The notes under the pieces: model-generated
Database searches by the model: none
What the model saw: only the letters and a program-made list of their open reading frames with translations
Told to the model about the DNA's origin: nothing
Translations under genes and position numbers: made by a program
Assembly: GCA_027079305.1 (NCBI GenBank)
Contig: JALWVU010000055.1
Location: forward strand, 434,001-498,000
Source of the DNA: Aquificaceae bacterium
GTDB taxonomy: Bacteria > Aquificota > Aquificia > Aquificales > Aquificaceae
Reading direction: 5' to 3'
Length of the DNA stretch: 64,000 nt
Shown: positions 20,735 through 63,458 of the stretch, in pieces
How positions within the stretch are numbered: position 1 is the stretch's first letter
Layout of the letters: each line of letters opens with the position of its first letter

Positions 20735-22930
20735 CTATCTGAGAACATGCTGGAACCTGTTTACGAAATCCTCCAGCTTTTCGGGATTCATACCGCTCAA
20801 GGACACGTCCGCCTCCGGATGGCCGTAGAGATTGCAGAGGGTAACTATCTTCGTATCCGTATGCTTTCTCAGGAGCCTTATGACGAAGTCCGTCCTGTAG
20901 CAGTGGACTCCGAGCATTAAAGTCAGGTCGTGCTTCCCGTGTAGTATAGAGATGTGGGGGTTGGGCGGATCCACCTCCCTCGCCGGATCGAAGTTCTTGT
21001 TCTTGGGCCTGTAGTCGGGTAGGACGTGGACGTTCAGATTGGGGAACAGTTCCTTGAGTTTTCTGACCAGCTGGGCTTTCTTCCTCGCCTCTTCGTTCCA
21101 GCTCCAGAGGACGAGGGGACCCACGATGATGGTAGGTCTCTCCGCCTCGAGAAGCATCTCCACCGCGAGCTTGAGCGCCTCGTCGTAGTCCACCTTTTTG
21201 CCCTTTATGAAGCCTACGTTCTTATCCGTTTCCTTAACTATTGGGAGGCGCGTCCTGTCCTCCTCCGGCCCCGAAACCGCCTTGGGGATCTTGTAGTATT
21301 CTGGTATGAAGTCCTTGAGAGCATCAGAGGGAACGGGTCTTTCCTTTTTCTGCTTGACGTTGTGATCTTCCACCTTCTCCTTGATAGAGAGGAGTTTCTC
21401 CGAGTCCTCCACGAAGAGGTCCAACTCCACCTGAAACTCTCCGTGGTAAGCCTTTTCCTCCTCCTCCACTCCCAGATCGTAGCAGGTGGTCCCTATTATG
21501 TCTATCAGAACCCCGTTGGCTCCCCAGTCTTTGGCCTTCCTGAATATTTCGTATCTCTTTTCATAGAACTCGTAGCAGCAGTGGCCTATGTAGGTGTAGC
21601 CGTTCTCCGCACACCAGCGGAGGGTGTCTCTCAACATCTCGAAGCTGGTTATGGTTATGGGGATCATACCCCTTTCGTAGGCCATGCGGTATAGGTCTCC
21701 CACCGTGCATCCCCCGCACTCCCCGCAGTCGTCCGTGTGTCTGTAGTCGCACCAGGCAGGCTTGGCACAGTAGGGAAGGAGCATAACCTTCGCCTTCTTT
21801 ATGTTCTCCTTCAGACTTCCCCCTATGCTTCCGATCACCTTATTCAGTTCTTTTTTTTTAAGACCGAGGTCCTGAGCCTCCAGCTTCCTTAAAGGGAACA
21901 GAACCGCCTCCACAAAGTCATCAACAGTCAGGTTCACGCTTTCAAAATCTCTCTTCTCGAAGAACTCTCTTATCCTCTTCTCAACGTCCTGAACCGGGGT
22001 GTGCTTCAGGTAAGCTTCGAGATCGTATATTAGTCTTTTTGGGTTTATAAATAGGTCCCCGTTTATGACCACCTGCTGGAGGATATTCCTTTCCGTATCC
22101 ACCTTTGCGGAGACCCTGAAGGTTCCCCCCGGGCACCTGTATATACCGAAGAGCATTTCCGAACTCTCAGGTGCACGCTTCACGTTGTATATCCACTCCT
22201 CGCTCCTGAAGTAGTCCTTCTTCTCTTCCAGTAGCTCCTTCTCCTCCTCTGTGAGGTCTCCCCACTCTGTCTTTATGCCGAACTCCTCCTCGAAGGCCTC
22301 TATGAAGGCCCTGAATATCTCCTCCTTATCGGGCACCCTTCCCAGCTCCCTCTTGAGCCAGGTAACCCTGTCCTCCGCCGCCTTTATGCCCTTGGAGGTG
22401 AGCTTCTCAACGGGAATCTGAAGAGACTTGAGCATCCTCTCCACGTTGAAATCCACGAGAACGGTGCCCTGATAGAGGAAAGCGCTCCCTTCGAAGACTC
22501 CTCCGGTCCCTGAGATCTTCTTCCCTTCCACCTCTATATCGTTCCTGGGTCTGAACTGGGCTTTGACCCCGAGCTTATTGAGAGCTTTCGCCGCGGCTTT
22601 GCATATCCTCTGGGTCAGCTCCTCGTAGCTCAGGTCTCCCAGATCCCTCCTGTCCGCTATCACTTCCCACCCTATCTGGGTCTCGTCAAAGTATATAGCT
22701 CCTCCTCCCGTTATCCTCCTCCCCACCTCTATGCCTTCCCTGCTCGTATACTCCTCTCTGACCTCCTGCCCAACCGCCTGGTGGTAACCTATCAGAACGC
22801 ACTCGGGCTTGAACTGAAGGAACCTTATTGTATTGGGAATCTTGCTTTCAGACTTGAGCTCGAGCATTATCTGATCGAGGGCCATGTTCTCGTAGTGAGG
22901 CCTCTGGCCTGTATATACAACTCTCCACAT
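20735..22930 (-). CDS. Lipoate-protein ligase-like / DUF116 / CODH-epsilon-like three-domain fusion
   Basis: 731 residues. Residues about 1-250 are a biotin/lipoate ligase fold with the catalytic words GRRITGGGAIYFDE and RNDIEVEGKKISG. Residues about 350-530 are a DUF116 region with a Cys-rich cluster, CDYRHTDDCGECGGC, and GTTCYDLG. Residues about 575-730 resemble the epsilon subunit of CO dehydrogenase/acetyl-CoA synthase (PTIIVGPLVLW, DLTLMLGVHCYRTDFVIRLL). It probably attaches or handles lipoate on a dedicated carrier protein, perhaps using a metal cluster. Normal LplA proteins are about 330 residues. GGAGGTGGG precedes the ATG. Transcribed alone and convergent with the DUF488 gene. Lipoate substrates are not in this window. 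Confidence 0.8.
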   Translation of the reverse strand: MWRVVYTGQRPHYENMALDQIMLELKSESKIPNTIRFLQFKPECVLIGYHQAVGQEVREEYTSREGIEVGRRITGGGAIYFDETQIGWEVIADRRDLGDLSYEELTQRICKAAAKALNKLGVKAQFRPRNDIEVEGKKISGTGGVFEGSAFLYQGTVLVDFNVERMLKSLQIPVEKLTSKGIKAAEDRVTWLKRELGRVPDKEEIFRAFIEAFEEEFGIKTEWGDLTEEEKELLEEKKDYFRSEEWIYNVKRAPESSEMLFGIYRCPGGTFRVSAKVDTERNILQQVVINGDLFINPKRLIYDLEAYLKHTPVQDVEKRIREFFEKRDFESVNLTVDDFVEAVLFPLRKLEAQDLGLKKKELNKVIGSIGGSLKENIKKAKVMLLPYCAKPAWCDYRHTDDCGECGGCTVGDLYRMAYERGMIPITITSFEMLRDTLRWCAENGYTYIGHCCYEFYEKRYEIFRKAKDWGANGVLIDIIGTTCYDLGVEEEEKAYHGEFQVELDLFVEDSEKLLSIKEKVEDHNVKQKKERPVPSDALKDFIPEYYKIPKAVSGPEEDRTRLPIVKETDKNVGFIKGKKVDYDEALKLAVEMLLEAERPTIIVGPLVLWSWNEEARKKAQLVRKLKELFPNLNVHVLPDYRPKNKNFDPAREVDPPNPHISILHGKHDLTLMLGVHCYRTDFVIRLLRKHTDTKIVTLCNLYGHPEADVSLSGMNPEKLEDFVNRFQHVLR

Positions 22931-32176: not shown

Positions 32177-33124
32177 ATGGACTCCTTCAGGCTCACGAAG
32201 GCTTCTCAAGAGGAGCTAAAAGAATACAGGGAGAAGGTCATCCCCCTTCAGGACAGGATATTTTCCGCCCTTGCTCCTCTGGGAGAGGCTATATATCTCA
32301 CGGGCGGAACAGCCCTTGCGAGGTTTTACTATAACCACAGGATTTCGGAAGACCTTGACTTCTTTACTAAAGAGACTGACCTAAAGGTTCTCGGCTCTAA
32401 TATCGTAGAGAAACTAAAGAAGGCAGGATTTGAGGTTGAGGTTGTCCTTCAGTCCGAATACTTCCTTAGAGTATTCGTAAACGGCTACAAGTTAGAGCTT
32501 GCCACGGAGTTCAACCATCACGGAGAGCTTATAAAGACCGAACACGGCATATACGTGAACAACCTTGAAGACATAGGAGCGAACAAGATAACAGCATGGG
32601 AAGACAGGGCGGAGCTGAGAGACTTGATTGACCTTTACTACATAACCAGAGACATTCCTCTCCAGAGGCTCTTTGCAATAGCGGACAAGAAGAGAGTCCC
32701 CGTGGCTTACGAGAGGTTCCTCGCCATAAACACCCAGGGAATACAGGGAGAGGTTTTACTTATAAGTGAAATTTCCCAGGAGGAACTTGCCGACTTTCTA
32801 AAGACACTTACCGAGGCAGTAAAGAACAACCTCAAAAAAAAAGAAGAAGAGGCTTTCAGAGAGGTAGATAAATACGTCTCAAGGCTCCTGTGGGACTTTC
32901 CCAAGAAGAGCAGACGCATATCTCCCGACACCATTCCCATCCTGAGAAGGAGAATAGAGAAGGTATCCCTTCCCATCCGCAGGGCTGTGGAGAGGGCTAT
33001 CGCTCAAAGGGGGCTTCCGGAAGAGACCGTCAGGGCGATAAGAGAGGCGAGGGAAGGGAAGAACGTGAGAGGGATTACACTTGAGGAGCTGAGGGAGATA
33101 GCTGGGCTGAGGGGAAAGGAGTGA
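32177..33124 (+). CDS. AbiEii/AbiGii-family nucleotidyltransferase toxin
   Basis: 315 residues. The nucleotidyltransferase signature IYLTGGTALARFYYNHRISE is followed by DLDFF, which supplies the GG and D-x-D metal site. Later KLELATEF gives the third acidic position, and IGANKITAWEDRAELRDLID is the conserved helix of this family. AbiEii toxins use NTP to modify RNA or other targets in abortive phage defence. A C-terminal extension (about 245-315) rich in Arg/Glu is unlike the minimal family. It is 9 bases after an unrecognised gene and ends inside palindrome 1. Confidence 0.85.
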   Translation: MDSFRLTKASQEELKEYREKVIPLQDRIFSALAPLGEAIYLTGGTALARFYYNHRISEDLDFFTKETDLKVLGSNIVEKLKKAGFEVEVVLQSEYFLRVFVNGYKLELATEFNHHGELIKTEHGIYVNNLEDIGANKITAWEDRAELRDLIDLYYITRDIPLQRLFAIADKKRVPVAYERFLAINTQGIQGEVLLISEISQEELADFLKTLTEAVKNNLKKKEEEAFREVDKYVSRLLWDFPKKSRRISPDTIPILRRRIEKVSLPIRRAVERAIAQRGLPEETVRAIREAREGKNVRGITLEELREIAGLRGKE

Positions 33125-57229: not shown

Positions 57230-58147
57230 CTACAGGGCTTCAAAGCTGTGAATCACAAAGCCCTTTACTCCATCACATGCAACGCTTTTCAGATCCACAA
57301 CCTTATCTCTCGGAAAGGTGAGGCGCTTTCCCTTCACCTCGTAGATTCCCACAAGCTCTAAAAACCTCTCACCCACCTTATAGACGTAGTGCTTCTCATC
57401 CCTCTGGGGATTTATCTCGAGGCCTATTAAAACGGGCTTTCCGAGCTTTTTCCCGAGGGCGATCTCCTCTCCGCTCAGCTTGAGAGCCTCCGAGAGGTTG
57501 TTCCTGTATGCCATCACCACCACCTCGTCCGCCTCCTCGAAGATAAGCTCTATGAGGCTCCTTTTCCCGACGGGAACCTTCTCATACCAGAAGGGAACCA
57601 CCACAGAGAGCTTTACATTTCCGAGCTCCCTCTTTATCCTTCGGATCTCTTCGAGGAGCTTCCTCGCATACCACTCCCTTCTCAGGTTGAAGTCGGGATT
57701 CTGGTAGGGCTCTATATCAATCTGGAAGCCGTCTGCGGGAAACTTTTTAACGTAAGATACGGGAAAGTTCAGCCCGTCCCTGCCCCCGTCGAGGAGGTAA
57801 ACCTCCAGCCCCATATCTTTAATTTTCTCGATGTGCTCCCTTTTGAGCCTCCTGCTCAGCTGGAGGTAGACCCTTTTCACCCCCAATCTTTTTACAGCGG
57901 AGACGAGATCCTTCCATCTTCTCTCAAGCTTCCTTAGGTCCCAGATCCAGAGGGCCACAAAACCCTCTCCCTCAGAGCACTCGGGAGGAGGGAGTTTTAC
58001 TGGTTTCTCTTCCTCTTTAAGGGGATTTTCCCTGTGGTAGGAGATGCTCAAACCCCTTTCGGAAGGGCTTATGTCTATGTAGTTCACGTCCCTGAGCTTC
58101 TGGGAGCATCCTGCAATGAGGAGCAGAAGAATCATCAGGAACCTCAC
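57230..58147 (-). CDS. Lipoprotein with TIM-barrel glycosidase-like domain
   Basis: 305 residues. The signal LMILLLLIAGCS has a lipobox Cys at about 14. The body has strand-helix order with FVALWIWDLRKLERRWKDLV, VKRVYLQLSRRLKREH, DGFQIDIEPYQNPDF and KLSVVVPFWYEKV, like a glycoside-hydrolase-type barrel. The Asp/Glu of QIDIEPY are candidate catalytic residues. No exact family named. Its start overlaps the phosphatase-like gene (ATGA), so it is the last coupled gene of the polysaccharide operon and may act on the polymer at the membrane. Confidence 0.7.
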   Translation of the reverse strand: MRFLMILLLLIAGCSQKLRDVNYIDISPSERGLSISYHRENPLKEEEKPVKLPPPECSEGEGFVALWIWDLRKLERRWKDLVSAVKRLGVKRVYLQLSRRLKREHIEKIKDMGLEVYLLDGGRDGLNFPVSYVKKFPADGFQIDIEPYQNPDFNLRREWYARKLLEEIRRIKRELGNVKLSVVVPFWYEKVPVGKRSLIELIFEEADEVVVMAYRNNLSEALKLSGEEIALGKKLGKPVLIGLEINPQRDEKHYVYKVGERFLELVGIYEVKGKRLTFPRDKVVDLKSVACDGVKGFVIHSFEAL

Positions 58148-58623
58148 TTTGCCACCCCCAGGAGCCTCTCCGCCACGAAGCCCACCCTGTGCCTTCCCAA
58201 GTAGCAGTGGATGTAAACTTTCTCGCTCTTATGTTTTTCCAATATCTTCCTTATCTTTTCTATCTGTCTGTAGTTCTCTGGAGAGTCGAGGTTCAGGAAG
58301 GAGAGGGGAACGTTGTAGAAGGCGAGCCTGAACTCTCTTACGAGCTTCTTCTCCTTTTCAAGAAGGCTCTTCTCAAAGGGAAGGGAGGGATTGAGGAGAG
58401 AGACGATCACCTTGACCTCGTTCACTTTGACGAGCTTCTCCAGATCTTTTCTGTGGGGATAGGGGCCGATTATTATGCTCTCGGTCACGTAGCGAGCCTC
58501 GCCCTGGATCATCCTCAGGGGAAAGAGGTAAGGCTCTATATAGCTGAAGTAGACCGAGGCCATAGAGAAGAGGTAGCCGATGAAGACAGCTATGAAGATC
58601 AGCCTAAGAACCTTTCCAAGCAT
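58144..58623 (-). CDS. Membrane-anchored dual-specificity phosphatase-like protein (active Cys present)
   Basis: 159 residues. An N-terminal helix (about 5-28) anchors it. A dual-specificity phosphatase fold follows: SIIIGPYPHRKDLEKL, VKVIVSLLNPSLPFEK, and the phosphate loop IHCYLGRHR, which fits HCx5R. The upstream general acid is not clear. It overlaps its paralogue upstream by 20 bases and the lipoprotein by 4. Its substrate could be a protein, lipid or sugar phosphate in the polymer pathway. Confidence 0.8.
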   Translation of the reverse strand: MLGKVLRLIFIAVFIGYLFSMASVYFSYIEPYLFPLRMIQGEARYVTESIIIGPYPHRKDLEKLVKVNEVKVIVSLLNPSLPFEKSLLEKEKKLVREFRLAFYNVPLSFLNLDSPENYRQIEKIRKILEKHKSEKVYIHCYLGRHRVGFVAERLLGVAK

Positions 58624-59104
58624 TTAGAACCTCCTTAATGTATTTGGTTCGGATCCTTCCGAGATAGCTGTGAACGTAAACCCTTTGCCTCCTGTAGCGC
58701 CTGAGGTAATACCTGAGCCTCTTCAAACTCCTCTCGTTCTCGACGAAGGGCTTGAGGGGAACGGAGACGAAGGTAAAGCCTCTACTTTTTAAAAACCTCC
58801 TCTCGTGCTCAAGGAGCTGTCTCTCGTGATACATGTCCCCGTCGAGGAGGGAGATGACAACCTTTATCCTGTTTTCCTTCAGGAACCTGAGCATCCTCTC
58901 CTCACCGAGGTAGCTCCCGACCCAGAGGTTTCTGCTGACCTTTCGAGGCTCCGCCTTCAGAAACTGCAGGGGGAGGAGATACCTCTCGTATTTTGGAAAG
59001 TTTGTAAAGGAGATGAAGATCAGAACAGCAGCACTCAGAGCTACTATGGAGAACACGGTCCTTAGCGTTAATGTAAGCAGGTTATCGAGCAGGGCTCTGA
59101 GCAT
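58604..59104 (-). CDS. Membrane-anchored phosphatase-like paralogue with Cys to Ser at the active site
   Basis: 166 residues. An N-terminal helix (about 10-32), then NLWVGSYLGEERMLRFLKEN, KVVISLLDGDMYHERQLLEH and a phosphate loop VHSYLGRIR. The alignment with the neighbour (HCYLGRHR) is direct, so the nucleophile Cys has become Ser while His, Gly and Arg remain. That form binds phosphate without turnover, so it is a likely pseudophosphatase. It overlaps the glycosyltransferase by 23 bases and its active paralogue by 20. Confidence 0.8.
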   Translation of the reverse strand: MLRALLDNLLTLTLRTVFSIVALSAAVLIFISFTNFPKYERYLLPLQFLKAEPRKVSRNLWVGSYLGEERMLRFLKENRIKVVISLLDGDMYHERQLLEHERRFLKSRGFTFVSVPLKPFVENERSLKRLRYYLRRYRRQRVYVHSYLGRIRTKYIKEVLNAWKGS

Positions 59105-60503
59105 GCGTCTCCTCTATCTTCTTTCTTTTCGGCTTTCCCCACACCCTTTTCCAGAACTGGAATGTGGCCACGAACCTCTCCATAACTATCAGCTGTCTGT
59201 ATCCGAATATTTCGAAGACGCTGAAAAGTATGAGCTTGAGGATGTCCCTCAGAGACCCGTATCTCCTGAAGAGGAGGTTGTCAAGAAGGATAGAGCCCCA
59301 GCTTATTAAAACCCCCCAGCCGAAGGCGACGAGGAAGAAAAGGAGGGCAAAGTCCCTGCTCAGCATACCGAAGAGGTAGAAGAGGACCACGCCAAGGTAT
59401 CCGAGAAACTCCACGAAGGGGCCCAGGGCCTCCACGAAGACGAAGTAGGGATAGCCGAACAATCCCACCCAGCCGAACTTGGGATTGAAGAACATCTCCT
59501 TGCTGTAGAGGAGGCTGTCTATGAGGCCCCTGTGCCACCTGTTCCTCTGCCTGAGGAGGGAACTGAGATCCGAAGGAACCTGTGTCCAGCAGATGGGATC
59601 GGGCATGAAGACGATCCTGTAGGGGATCCCCCTCTCGCCGAAGTGCTTGTGCATCCTCACCACCAGGTCCATGTCCTCCCCCACCGTGTGCCTGTAGCCT
59701 CCCACCGCGATGGCGGCGTCCTTCCTGAATATCCCGAAGGCCCCCGATATGATCAGGAGGCTGTTGAAGAGGTTCCAGGCGGTCCTTCCCGTCAGGAAGC
59801 CCCTCACGTATTCGATGACCTGAAAGACCTCCACCCACTTCTTGGGAGCTTTTATTTCCACGACCCTCCCGTGCCTGACCACGCACCCGTTTAGGGCCCT
59901 CACCACCCCTCCCGTCGCTATCACCCTCCTGTCCTCCACGAAGAGCCTGGAAGCCCTCAGGAGGGCCTCCTCCTCGAGGATGGAGTCCGCATCTATACAG
60001 CAGAAGAGGGGATAACTGCAGACGTTTATACCGCAGTTGAGGGCGTCCGCCTTCCCCCCGTTCTCCTTGTCCACCACAATCAGGTTGGGATGATCGAGGG
60101 AGACGTAGATGTCCCTTATGGGCTTGTGGTCCAGAACCTTGCGGACGGGCTTTTCTATCCTCACGAGCCTGAAGGCCTCCTTGAGCTTCTCCACAGTCTT
60201 GTCCGTGGAGCCGTCGCTTATGACGACCACCTCGAACTCGGGATAGTGGAGCCTGAGGAGGGACTTAACGCTGGGGACTATGGTCTCCTCCTCGTTGTAG
60301 GCGGGGACGAGTATGGAGATGGGCCTGTAGAGGATGTTGGAGAGCATAAGCTCGAGCTTCTCCCTCCTCACGAGGATTATGTGTCTGTAGAGATGGTATA
60401 GGGAGATGAGGATAAAGAGCGTGTATATGCCGTTGACCGCCGTGAAGTAGATGAGTATGAGAAGCTGGAACCCGAGAAGGAAGTAGGCCAGGGCCTCAAG
60501 CAT
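59082..60503 (-). CDS. Family-2 processive glycosyltransferase (PgaC/hyaluronan-synthase-like)
   Basis: 473 residues. Two N-terminal helices (about 1-35), then a GT-A domain: ISILVPAYNEEETIVPSVKS, VVISDGSTDKTVEKLK, NGGKADALNCGINVC and the D-x-D CCIDADSILE. A catalytic acidic residue follows in TVGEDMDLVVRMHK, and the processivity motif is QRNRWHRG. Three or four C-terminal helices follow. It polymerises a beta-linked polysaccharide from a nucleotide sugar. It overlaps the HEAT-repeat gene by 8 bases. The sugar cannot be told from sequence. Confidence 0.93.
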   Translation of the reverse strand: MLEALAYFLLGFQLLILIYFTAVNGIYTLFILISLYHLYRHIILVRREKLELMLSNILYRPISILVPAYNEEETIVPSVKSLLRLHYPEFEVVVISDGSTDKTVEKLKEAFRLVRIEKPVRKVLDHKPIRDIYVSLDHPNLIVVDKENGGKADALNCGINVCSYPLFCCIDADSILEEEALLRASRLFVEDRRVIATGGVVRALNGCVVRHGRVVEIKAPKKWVEVFQVIEYVRGFLTGRTAWNLFNSLLIISGAFGIFRKDAAIAVGGYRHTVGEDMDLVVRMHKHFGERGIPYRIVFMPDPICWTQVPSDLSSLLRQRNRWHRGLIDSLLYSKEMFFNPKFGWVGLFGYPYFVFVEALGPFVEFLGYLGVVLFYLFGMLSRDFALLFFLVAFGWGVLISWGSILLDNLLFRRYGSLRDILKLILFSVFEIFGYRQLIVMERFVATFQFWKRVWGKPKRKKIEETHAQSPAR

Positions 60504-61632
60504 TCCTCACCTCCAGCTCCTGCAGGAAGTATCTGGCGGTATCCTGGGCGAACCTGTCCTCGGAGGAGAGGAGCTTCTCGAACACCTCCCTCGCCCTGTC
60601 TTTGAAGTAGAGTATGGTCCTCCCAGCGTTTATCCTCACGTGGTAGCTCTCGTCCTTTAGCCTCTCCACAAGGGCTTCCCCCACCCTCTCCCAGGGGCAG
60701 AGGAAGGCGAACCTGCAGGCGACCGCCCTCACCCTCCAGTCGGGATGGATCAGGTTCTCGAGGATAACCTCGCACGCTCCCTCGAAGCCCATGAGCCCCA
60801 AGGCCCTCACACAGCTTATCCTCATGGCTGTGTCCTCCCTGTATCTCCCGTAAACCCTGAGGACGAAGCCCCCCAGGCTCGGCATCCTCTTGTTGCCCAG
60901 AGCCTCCACAAAGGCCCTGAGGAAGAAGGGTCTCTCAGAAAACTTTTCCCAGACAAACTCGAGGAACTCCTCGAGCCTTCCCTTCTCCGAGAAGGTATCC
61001 AGGAGATCGAACCACAGAAACTCCACAAACTTGAAGCTCACATACTTCATCCTCTCGAGGCTCATGAAGAGGAACTCCACGTCCCGAAAGTCTTCCGCCA
61101 GAAGCGCATAAGAGAAAATGAGCCTCTCCATTACCCACTCCCTCTCCTCCTTCTCGAGCTCTTCCTTCAGCTTCTCCTTTATATCGCGAACCTTCAGGTA
61201 GGCCAGCTTCTCGTAGGCGACCACCCTGTCGTGGACTATGAAGCTCCTTGTCTTCCTCAGGTAGTAGTCCACGACCCCCATCTCCTGGGCTATCTGGCGG
61301 ACCTTTTCCGTGAAGGCTCCCTTGAACTTCTTGAGGATCTCCAAACACACGTCCCCGAGAGCCTCCTTCTCTATGTCTCCCTTGGGAGGATCGATGCTCC
61401 CTTCACCGATGACCGCGTTCACAACCTGATCGCTGTATCTGTCGTAGGCCCTTTTGTAGAGCCTGTCCCTCCTGTCCACGTATATCCTGTGGACCACGGT
61501 AGTTAGGGCCAGGAAGAGGTCGACCGCTCCGAGGAAGAGGATAACCTTCCACAGAAAGGCCTTCAGCTCTTCTGGACCTACGAAGCTTATCCTCTGGAGG
61601 ATCTCCCCCAGATCACCACCAAAGCCTTCCAT
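60496..61632 (-). CDS. HEAT-repeat protein with N-terminal membrane helix
   Basis: 378 residues. A membrane helix at about 25-45 (LWKVILFLGAVDLFLALTTV). Helical body with HEAT-like repeats in the last third: MRISCVRALGLMGFEGACEV, HPDWRVRAVACRFAFL, ESYHVRINAGRTILY, RFAQDTARYFLQELE. Likely a scaffold that organises the synthase. It overlaps the barrel frame upstream by 20 bases and the glycosyltransferase by 8. Similar HEAT genes accompany GT2/YaiO polysaccharide loci, which is why I place it in the complex. Confidence 0.75.
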   Translation of the reverse strand: MEGFGGDLGEILQRISFVGPEELKAFLWKVILFLGAVDLFLALTTVVHRIYVDRRDRLYKRAYDRYSDQVVNAVIGEGSIDPPKGDIEKEALGDVCLEILKKFKGAFTEKVRQIAQEMGVVDYYLRKTRSFIVHDRVVAYEKLAYLKVRDIKEKLKEELEKEEREWVMERLIFSYALLAEDFRDVEFLFMSLERMKYVSFKFVEFLWFDLLDTFSEKGRLEEFLEFVWEKFSERPFFLRAFVEALGNKRMPSLGGFVLRVYGRYREDTAMRISCVRALGLMGFEGACEVILENLIHPDWRVRAVACRFAFLCPWERVGEALVERLKDESYHVRINAGRTILYFKDRAREVFEKLLSSEDRFAQDTARYFLQELEVRNA

Positions 61633-62296
61633 AAGCGCTCACCCCGAACCTTCTGTAGAGTCCTCTCCTGTCCTCGAACTTGATAGAGGCTCCCAGGCTG
61701 AACCTTTCCGTGAGCCTCAGCTCACCGCCTGCGCCAGCTGAGAAGGTAGAGTATCTAATGAAGTCCTCCCCCGCCTGGAGTCTCTCGGAGGAGGTCCCGA
61801 AGGAGATGGAGAAGAAGAGCTCTTTCCGCCTGTCTTTGTAGCCGAACCTGTTTAGCAGAGAGAATGTGGATCTCTTCACGTTCAGATAGAGTGTGGCCGT
61901 GTGGTATGTGCCTTCCGGAAAGTATAAGGTTACGGAGGGAGCAAGAAGGAAGACCTCCGAGCTTCCGAACCTCATGTATCTGAGATTCACTCCAGGCTCT
62001 ATCCTCCTGTAGGATCTGAAGATACCTCCCCCCAAACTATACTGGGGGAGGAAGTCCGCCTCTGGAGATATGTCCCCAGACAGATAGCCCCAGAAGCCTC
62101 CGCCGATCCTCCTGTAGTAGTCGAGGCCGAGCTGGGAGTTCTCCCTCCCGAACCTGTTTACCAAACCCACCCTGCCTATCAGGGAACCTCCGAGGATCCC
62201 CGAGAACTTGGACTCCAAGAAGACCTCTTTATCCGTGAAGTCCCTGCCCTCATACCAGTAGTAGCCCGCCCTCAGGCGCAGGTAGTTGGGATAGAG
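61613..62296 (-). CDS. YaiO-type outer-membrane beta-barrel, in the second frame of the TPR gene
   Basis: Continuous frame from the A9 run to 61613. It reads LYPNYLRLRAGYYWYEGRDF, then IGRVGLVNRFGRENSQLGLD and many amphipathic strands ending in an aromatic (VSAYGRLWW), the form of an outer-membrane barrel. I recognise the YaiO family pattern. The first in-frame start is a TTG at 62218 inside the barrel, with no ribosome site, so the frame is most likely expressed as the C-terminal part of the TPR protein at 62272-63111 through a one-base shift at the A run. Probably an export pore for the polymer. Confidence 0.75.
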   Translation of the reverse strand, partial: LYPNYLRLRAGYYWYEGRDFTDKEVFLESKFSGILGGSLIGRVGLVNRFGRENSQLGLDYYRRIGGGFWGYLSGDISPEADFLPQYSLGGGIFRSYRRIEPGVNLRYMRFGSSEVFLLAPSVTLYFPEGTYHTATLYLNVKRSTFSLLNRFGYKDRRKELFFSISFGTSSERLQAGEDFIRYSTFSAGAGGELRLTERFSLGASIKFEDRRGLYRRFGVSAYGRLWW

Positions 62297-63111
62297 TTTT
62301 TTTTTACGATCTTCCTCGGCTGGAGCAGGGAGTAGATCTCCCTTATCTCCCTGTCCTGGGGATACCTCTCCATCAGGTGTGCGAATACCCTGCGGGCCTC
62401 ATCTCGTCTTCCAGTCCTTATGTATAGCCTTCCCAGCCTCATGCCCGTGTCGTAGCTCTTCTCTTCCTCGTAGAGCTTTTCGAGGAGATCTATCGCTTCT
62501 TCGAGCTTTCCCTCCTTCTCGAGTCTGTCCACCTTCTCTAAGATCATCTTGATCTCCACCCTCCTCCTCTCGTCCGCAAGGCTCGGATCGAGCCTTTCAA
62601 GCTCCCTGTAGATCTTCAGAGACTCCTCGTATTTGCCCTGCCAGAAGAGGACCCTCGCCAGCTGGAGCCTCACCTCCCTGCTGTCGGGATACCGTCTGGA
62701 GAGCTCCCTGTAGATCTCCTCAGCCTTCTCATACTCCCTGCGCTTTATGTAGAGCCGGGCCAGCCTCATCCCGAGGTCGTAGGTAAAGAACTTGCTCCTC
62801 TTTGCCTCGTAACGGGGAAGGACTATCCTCTCGGGCACGAGATCGCACTTCCTCACGAAGGCGTCCCTGAAGACCTCCCTCGCCCTCCTGAGAAGTTTTA
62901 CAGCGTTCTCCCTCTTTTTGAAAAAGCCGGCCCTCAAGGTGTATATATCCCCGATCTTCTCTATCCTCACGTAGGGGAAGGTGCTCACGTATCTTATAGC
63001 ACGCCTTAGATCCTCGAACTTCCTTGAAGAAGCCATCTGGACGCAGTAGTAGGTCTCCCTCGCGAAGGTAGAAAAAGAGAGGACTATTAGCAGGAGGAAT
63101 ATAAGTCTCAT
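62272..63111 (-). CDS. TPR-repeat secreted protein, N-terminal part of a TPR-YaiO barrel
   Basis: 279 residues as read. A signal peptide (about 1-17, LIFLLLIVLSFSTFA). An SPOR-like segment (about 20-90, YYCVQMASSRKFEDL and YTLRAGFFKKRENA). TPR-like repeats with A/G-x-Y spacing: EYEKAEEIYRELSRRYPDS, YEESLKIYRELERLDP, GRRDEARRVFAHLMERYPQD. It runs into A9 (62297-62305), after which this frame soon stops (KNSIPTTCA). One extra A would join it to the barrel frame as one protein of about 500 residues, the normal TPR-then-barrel YaiO layout. Start overlaps the response regulator stop (ATGA). Confidence 0.8.
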   Translation of the reverse strand: MRLIFLLLIVLSFSTFARETYYCVQMASSRKFEDLRRAIRYVSTFPYVRIEKIGDIYTLRAGFFKKRENAVKLLRRAREVFRDAFVRKCDLVPERIVLPRYEAKRSKFFTYDLGMRLARLYIKRREYEKAEEIYRELSRRYPDSREVRLQLARVLFWQGKYEESLKIYRELERLDPSLADERRRVEIKMILEKVDRLEKEGKLEEAIDLLEKLYEEEKSYDTGMRLGRLYIRTGRRDEARRVFAHLMERYPQDREIREIYSLLQPRKIVKKNSIPTTCA

Positions 63112-63458
63112 TTAAGGGACTCCAGCTTCCTTATGAGGTGGTTCAGGCTGAAGGGCTTTATTACGTAGTCCCTCGCTCCGAGGTCGTAGGCCTTCTCTAT
63201 GTTGAAGTCCTGGGAGAGAACGCTCATGACTATGACAGGTATATCGGAACCAGCGTTCCTGAGTTCACTCAGGGCGTCGAAGCCCGACTTTCCGGGCATG
63301 TTGATGTCCAGAAGTATGACGTCGGGCTTAAAATCTTTCACAGCCTCCAGGATCCCTTCAGCGCTCTCCATCCACATGACCTCGTGCCCCCTGTTCTCGA
63401 GGGCTGTCTTTACCATCTTTCCTATAACGGGCTCGTCGTCCACAACGAGGACCTTCAT
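63108..63458 (-). CDS. Single-domain response regulator
   Basis: 116 residues, receiver only: VLVVDDEPV, phospho-acceptor Asp in VILLDINMPGKSG, Ser in IVMSVLS and Lys in DYVIKPFS. First gene of the leftward polysaccharide operon, coupled to the TPR gene by ATGA. The kinase is unknown; the small kinase-like gene at 56,618 and the GHKL gene at 63,484 are candidates. A TATAAT box lies 8 bases before the ATG (63472-63467). Confidence 0.92.
   Translation of the reverse strand: MKVLVVDDEPVIGKMVKTALENRGHEVMWMESAEGILEAVKDFKPDVILLDINMPGKSGFDALSELRNAGSDIPVIVMSVLSQDFNIEKAYDLGARDYVIKPFSLNHLIRKLESLK

Follow-up and report, generated by a model that had tools for sequence, protein, structure and literature searches.

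A run of nine A's at the boundary between two reading frames (62297-62305, minus strand; T9 on the plus strand) probably serves as a programmed transcriptional slippage site that gives rise to both a SPOR-TPR protein and a TPR-barrel exporter. The run lies in the window, i.e. the 64,000-nucleotide stretch of Aquificaceae DNA analysed here. As we read the sequence, RNA polymerase, rather than the ribosome, would slip on the run and produce mRNAs with 8, 9, 10 or more A's. Transcripts with nine A's would specify a secreted SPOR-TPR protein terminating just past the run, and transcripts with ten (or seven) A's would join SPOR-TPR to a YaiO barrel, resulting in an outer-membrane exporter with a SPOR domain able to hold peptidoglycan. 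Both products, presumably both needed, would serve the synthase-dependent polysaccharide system of the same operon.

The sequence GTA9C is the meeting point of the SPOR-TPR frame (62272-63111) and the YaiO barrel frame (61613-62305), both on the minus strand and offset by one base, i.e. -1 or, equivalently, +1 A. Across the junction the minus strand reads ATC GTA AAA AAA AAC TCT ATC CCA ACT ACC TGC GCC TGA. Frame 0 ends in VKKNSIPTTCA with a stop at 62272, while the -1/+1 A frame continues as KKKLYPNYLRLRAGYYWYEG and stays open as the YaiO barrel to 61613. The frame 0 protein of 279 aa, the proposed product of A9 transcripts, has a signal-peptide-like start followed by a SPOR domain (E 3.6e-8) and TPRs. 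Assignment of the barrel region to YaiO is backed by Pfam PF19413 (E 3.5e-16, 60.1 bits versus a cut-off of 23.9) and NCBIfam TIGR04390 (E 1.9e-24, 86.9 bits versus a cut-off of 32). Access to the barrel frame requires a shift on the run, and the fusion would comprise ~499 aa. A sequence-only reading had already described a TPR frame and a YaiO barrel split at nine A's; re-reading of the minus strand bore out its count of A's and both frames. The present analysis adds the SPOR domain to this observation, and shows that the run is kept across species and recurs in other genes.

Purifying selection is equally strong on the barrel and SPOR-TPR parts: in comparisons of the three closest species, dN/dS is 0.09-0.13 for the barrel and 0.09-0.14 for SPOR-TPR. 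The other two frames of the barrel DNA each contain 5 to 19 stops. Independent translation of the barrel was considered and rejected, since there is neither a barrel-frame start codon ahead of strand 1 nor a signal peptide; the earliest barrel-frame start is a GTG in L003, located inside strand 1. To reach the outer membrane, an outer-membrane barrel generally requires a signal peptide. The YaiO barrel would therefore have to borrow that of SPOR-TPR, and hence would have to be made as a fusion.

Homologues were searched in 136 genomes of the phylum. The barrel is present in ten of them, namely the window's own genome, eight more of its genus and G030, which belongs to another genus; no homologues were found outside these two genera. 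By name, the records are metagenome assemblies of Aquificaceae and Aquificota that belong to several accession series, and all but possibly the window's are metagenomic. In 10 of 10 species the TPR/barrel junction carries exactly nine A's, never eight or ten. All nine genus members have GTA9 and a barrel shifted in the same direction, at protein identities down to ~47%. Thus, the two features looked for at a slippage site, an A/T homopolymer of roughly nine or more bases where the frames meet and conservation of frame change and run in divergent homologues, are both present. Homopolymer errors are common with some sequencing methods, but agreement of nine assemblies from several accession series on length and frame makes it hardly conceivable that an assembly or sequencing error has disrupted an ordinary continuous gene. 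The linkers around the run vary in length and sequence among genus members, and the short frame 0 tail downstream of it is without conservation. The run starts at codon position 3 in six genus members (GTA AAA AAA AAC or AAG) and at position 1 in three (AAA AAA AAA C), and so it is not the by-product of one conserved peptide. Lysine codon AAA is in the minority in the exporter genes (19-44%), and thus codon choice is unlikely to have produced a pure A run. In L004, L009 and L010, a TAA of the barrel frame overlaps the first A's of the run, which means that the frame change must occur on the run itself.

Counts from pattern searches of the genomes speak to whether the run could lie at the junction by accident. 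Exact A9 runs number only 11 in the window's own genome (2.0 Mb) and 2-6 in the nine other genomes with the exporter gene, yet all ten have one at the junction; chance location is thereby excluded. In three genomes, A8 runs number 34, 9 and 43 versus 3, 2 and 3 for A9. Such scarcity of A9, with the runs placed at recurrent genes, is what selection against these runs elsewhere in the genome would leave.

The sequence-only reading had also raised the possibility that the exporter is switched on and off by phase variation. In this view, replication slippage would alter the run length in the DNA. Nine-base homopolymers are mutable and the protein is surface-exposed. However, the run is exactly nine in 10 of 10 species with an equal frame relation in nine of them, and the same length recurs in dnaX (see below), a housekeeping gene for which phase variation is improbable. 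We consider on/off switching at the DNA level very improbable and do not retain it.

A different view of the junction is provided by G030. Here, SPOR-TPR-YaiO is encoded by a single open frame of ~518 codons, and A9 is retained at the junction. With 8 or 10 A's the G030 protein would end at 285 or 294 residues, corresponding to the TPR-only form. Therefore, whether frame 0 yields the short product (nine species) or the long one (G030), the same two products would arise if slippage takes place. The natural G030 fusion was modelled with AlphaFold at a mean pLDDT of 86.5 and a pTM of only 0.46, making the relative placement of the domains unreliable. The model comprises the SPOR domain, TPR helices to residue 266, a low-confidence linker holding the run, and 14 strands from residue 294. 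The best match among solved folds is E. coli BcsC, and the barrel alone resembles OmpG. The G030 operon has the same composition: response regulator, SPOR-TPR-YaiO, HEAT, GT2 and four more genes. Relatives with a continuous gene and no run had been named beforehand as an observation that would speak against slippage; the G030 gene is indeed continuous, but the nine A's are still there.

The G030 gene also bears on the view that a frameshift mutation is merely tolerated because slippage rescues the barrel, as in ant endosymbionts, the short form having no role. Slippage rescue is known and the lack of conservation of the frame 0 tail fits, but the run persists in G030, whose continuous frame requires no rescue, and in in-frame lipoate-ligase genes described below, even though dS is saturated between these species. 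A9 thus occurs with the frame shift in nine species and without it in G030, where it could also be a remnant. Rooting of the gene tree was tried to learn which of the two states, split or in-frame, came first, with weak support and no outgroup. Overall, we regard mere tolerance of a broken frame as unlikely. Retention of the run despite a flipped reading frame is the observation that tells selection for a dual output apart from simple repair of a damaged gene.

As to the machinery that changes frame, transcriptional slippage depends on the length of the run and is indifferent to codon phase, while a ribosomal shift relies on a heptamer in one phase, usually accompanied by a stimulator. The fusion could thus also be made by programmed -1 ribosomal frameshifting, or by ribosomes sliding on poly(A), at A AAA AAC/G/A heptamers within the run. 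Indeed, an in-frame slippery heptamer is found in every case and the -1 direction fits. However, seven bases would suffice for the heptamer and yet all nine are retained, among them the wobble A of GTA where the run starts at codon position 3, and the run sits in different codon phases. A downstream RNA or Shine-Dalgarno stimulator was searched for in the ten species and none is conserved: downstream RNA is no more structured than shuffled sequences in nine of ten (z near 0; only L008 stands out with z -2.2), and eight of ten show unremarkable Shine-Dalgarno pairing upstream, with strong pairing confined to L005 and L009. An invariant length, differing codon phases and the lack of a conserved stimulator together favour RNA polymerase, which in Thermus slips on an identical A9 in dnaX. 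Slippage into a soluble TPR protein and a barrel form, as originally suggested, is thus well supported by conservation of the run, whereas the -1 frameshifting offered along with it is a possible but rather unlikely route.

Apart from the exporter, most A9 runs (nearly all were read) fall in few recurring genes, namely dnaX and a lipoate-ligase/DUF116 gene; several other runs of the window's own genome are at non-recurrent places and look like chance. In dnaX, A9 is located near the 3' end in the window's genus and in three other genera of the family (L013, at G000:C30:46384-46392; L041-L051, L053, L054, L058, L060, L061, L071-L076). Past the run, frame 0 encodes a short tail such as DTTSLF, and addition of one A leads to YDESVLKVMELFNAKVV, resembling the in-frame C-terminus of genera that lack the run. 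The short dnaX tail is conserved as xxLF, similar to a clamp-binding motif, and both tails look conserved. The second gene encodes a lipoate-ligase/DUF116/CO-dehydrogenase-epsilon fusion with A9 (A10 in G013) after the ligase part, at a domain boundary (window 21851-21859, minus strand, L018; relatives L083, L088, L095-L106, L111, L112, L114). Most species read through this run in frame, the exceptions being G003, G009 and G014, where it is out of frame; the run occurs in three codon phases. Chances seem evenly balanced that the Aquificaceae maintain, throughout the lineage, a small set of A9 slippage genes, comprising the exporter, dnaX, the lipoate-ligase fusion and perhaps a T9-containing membrane protein, in which selection would act on dual output and the gene frame may flip while the nine A's stay. 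In any case, the survey yields a handful of candidate genes for slippage within a single family of deep-branching thermophiles. The membrane protein, which is without a firm family match, has an in-frame T9 on the sense strand of its gene in seven genomes (L079, L082, L084, L087, L089, L090, L092). An FtsQ-like gene has A9 near the N-terminus in three close relatives only (L017, L080, L086), which may be chance. A third exact A9 of the window (32834-32842, plus strand, L019) is in frame in a nucleotidyltransferase-like gene and has no counterpart at this position in those relatives that were examined.

The genes surrounding the exporter, all on the minus strand, suggest a role in polysaccharide export. 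Upstream, a stand-alone receiver domain (response regulator, 63108-63458) overlaps the SPOR-TPR start and is a conserved neighbour. Downstream follows a HEAT-repeat protein (60496-61632), whose gene starts inside the barrel frame; its translation may therefore be coupled to, and depend on, ribosomes in that frame. Next comes a GT2 membrane glycosyltransferase, PgaC/IcaA-like (59082-60503; E 2.6e-37, below that model's cut-off), followed by two small membrane proteins (58604-59104 and 58144-58623) and a predicted 305-aa lipoprotein of unassigned family, conserved in the operon (57230-58147). Of the two small membrane proteins, the second contains HCYLGRHR, a CX5R phosphatase-like motif read from the sequence, and the first HSYLGRIR with Ser for Cys, as in a pseudo-phosphatase. 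TPRs and an outer-membrane barrel are thus encoded next to a GT2 synthase, as is typical for exporters of the BcsC/PgaA type. Scores against the PgaA and BcsC family models are far below their cut-offs (29.7 bits versus 366.65 for TIGR03939; 22.4 versus 858 for NF008520). Hence, the protein probably works like the BcsC/PgaA type without being a member of these families. In such a system the SPOR-TPR form would act as a periplasmic scaffold on peptidoglycan and the fusion as the pore.

Programmed transcriptional slippage as such is known. In Thermus thermophilus dnaX, slippage on A9 generates a short and a long protein (PMC1088944). The exporter shares with it exactly nine A's in a gene of a thermophile and would likewise give a short plus a long protein, but it is another gene, and frame 0 encodes the long form in Thermus, as it does in the G030 exporter, while in the other nine species it encodes the short form. 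In Citrobacter rodentium tssM1, according to the abstract, transcriptional frameshifting yields two forms, and both forms and their ratio are needed (PMC4256274). As proposed for the exporter, tssM1 encodes an envelope secretion protein made in truncated and full-length forms via a poly-A run; however, the run is A11, the system is type VI secretion, and the abstract states no clade-wide conservation of exact length. Shigella mxiE likewise requires slippage for the longer product (PMC1088944), but uses a run of U and encodes a transcription activator. The literature searched contained no case of slippage in polysaccharide exporters or in Aquificae, and the main text of the GeneTack paper lists no TPR or YaiO case. 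Judged against this literature, three things look new: the present gene, a flip of frame that leaves the run in place, and the reappearance of such runs in several genes across a single family.

If the proposed slippage is true, a stuttering polymerase would supply a probable polysaccharide exporter in both separate and fused forms. Among known systems, those for cellulose, Pel and PNAG have the repeat domain and porin fused, and the alginate system has the repeat domain as a separate protein (PMC9384988); slippage in the exporter would thus give both layouts. As in the TPR porins BcsC, PgaA and PelB and in the pair AlgK and AlgE, a TPR or repeat domain would feed an outer-membrane pore encoded beside a GT2 synthase. 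The exporter differs from BcsC and PgaA by its YaiO barrel with 14 predicted strands, versus 16 in both of them, by its added SPOR domain, and by fused and separate layouts that would be obtained from one gene.
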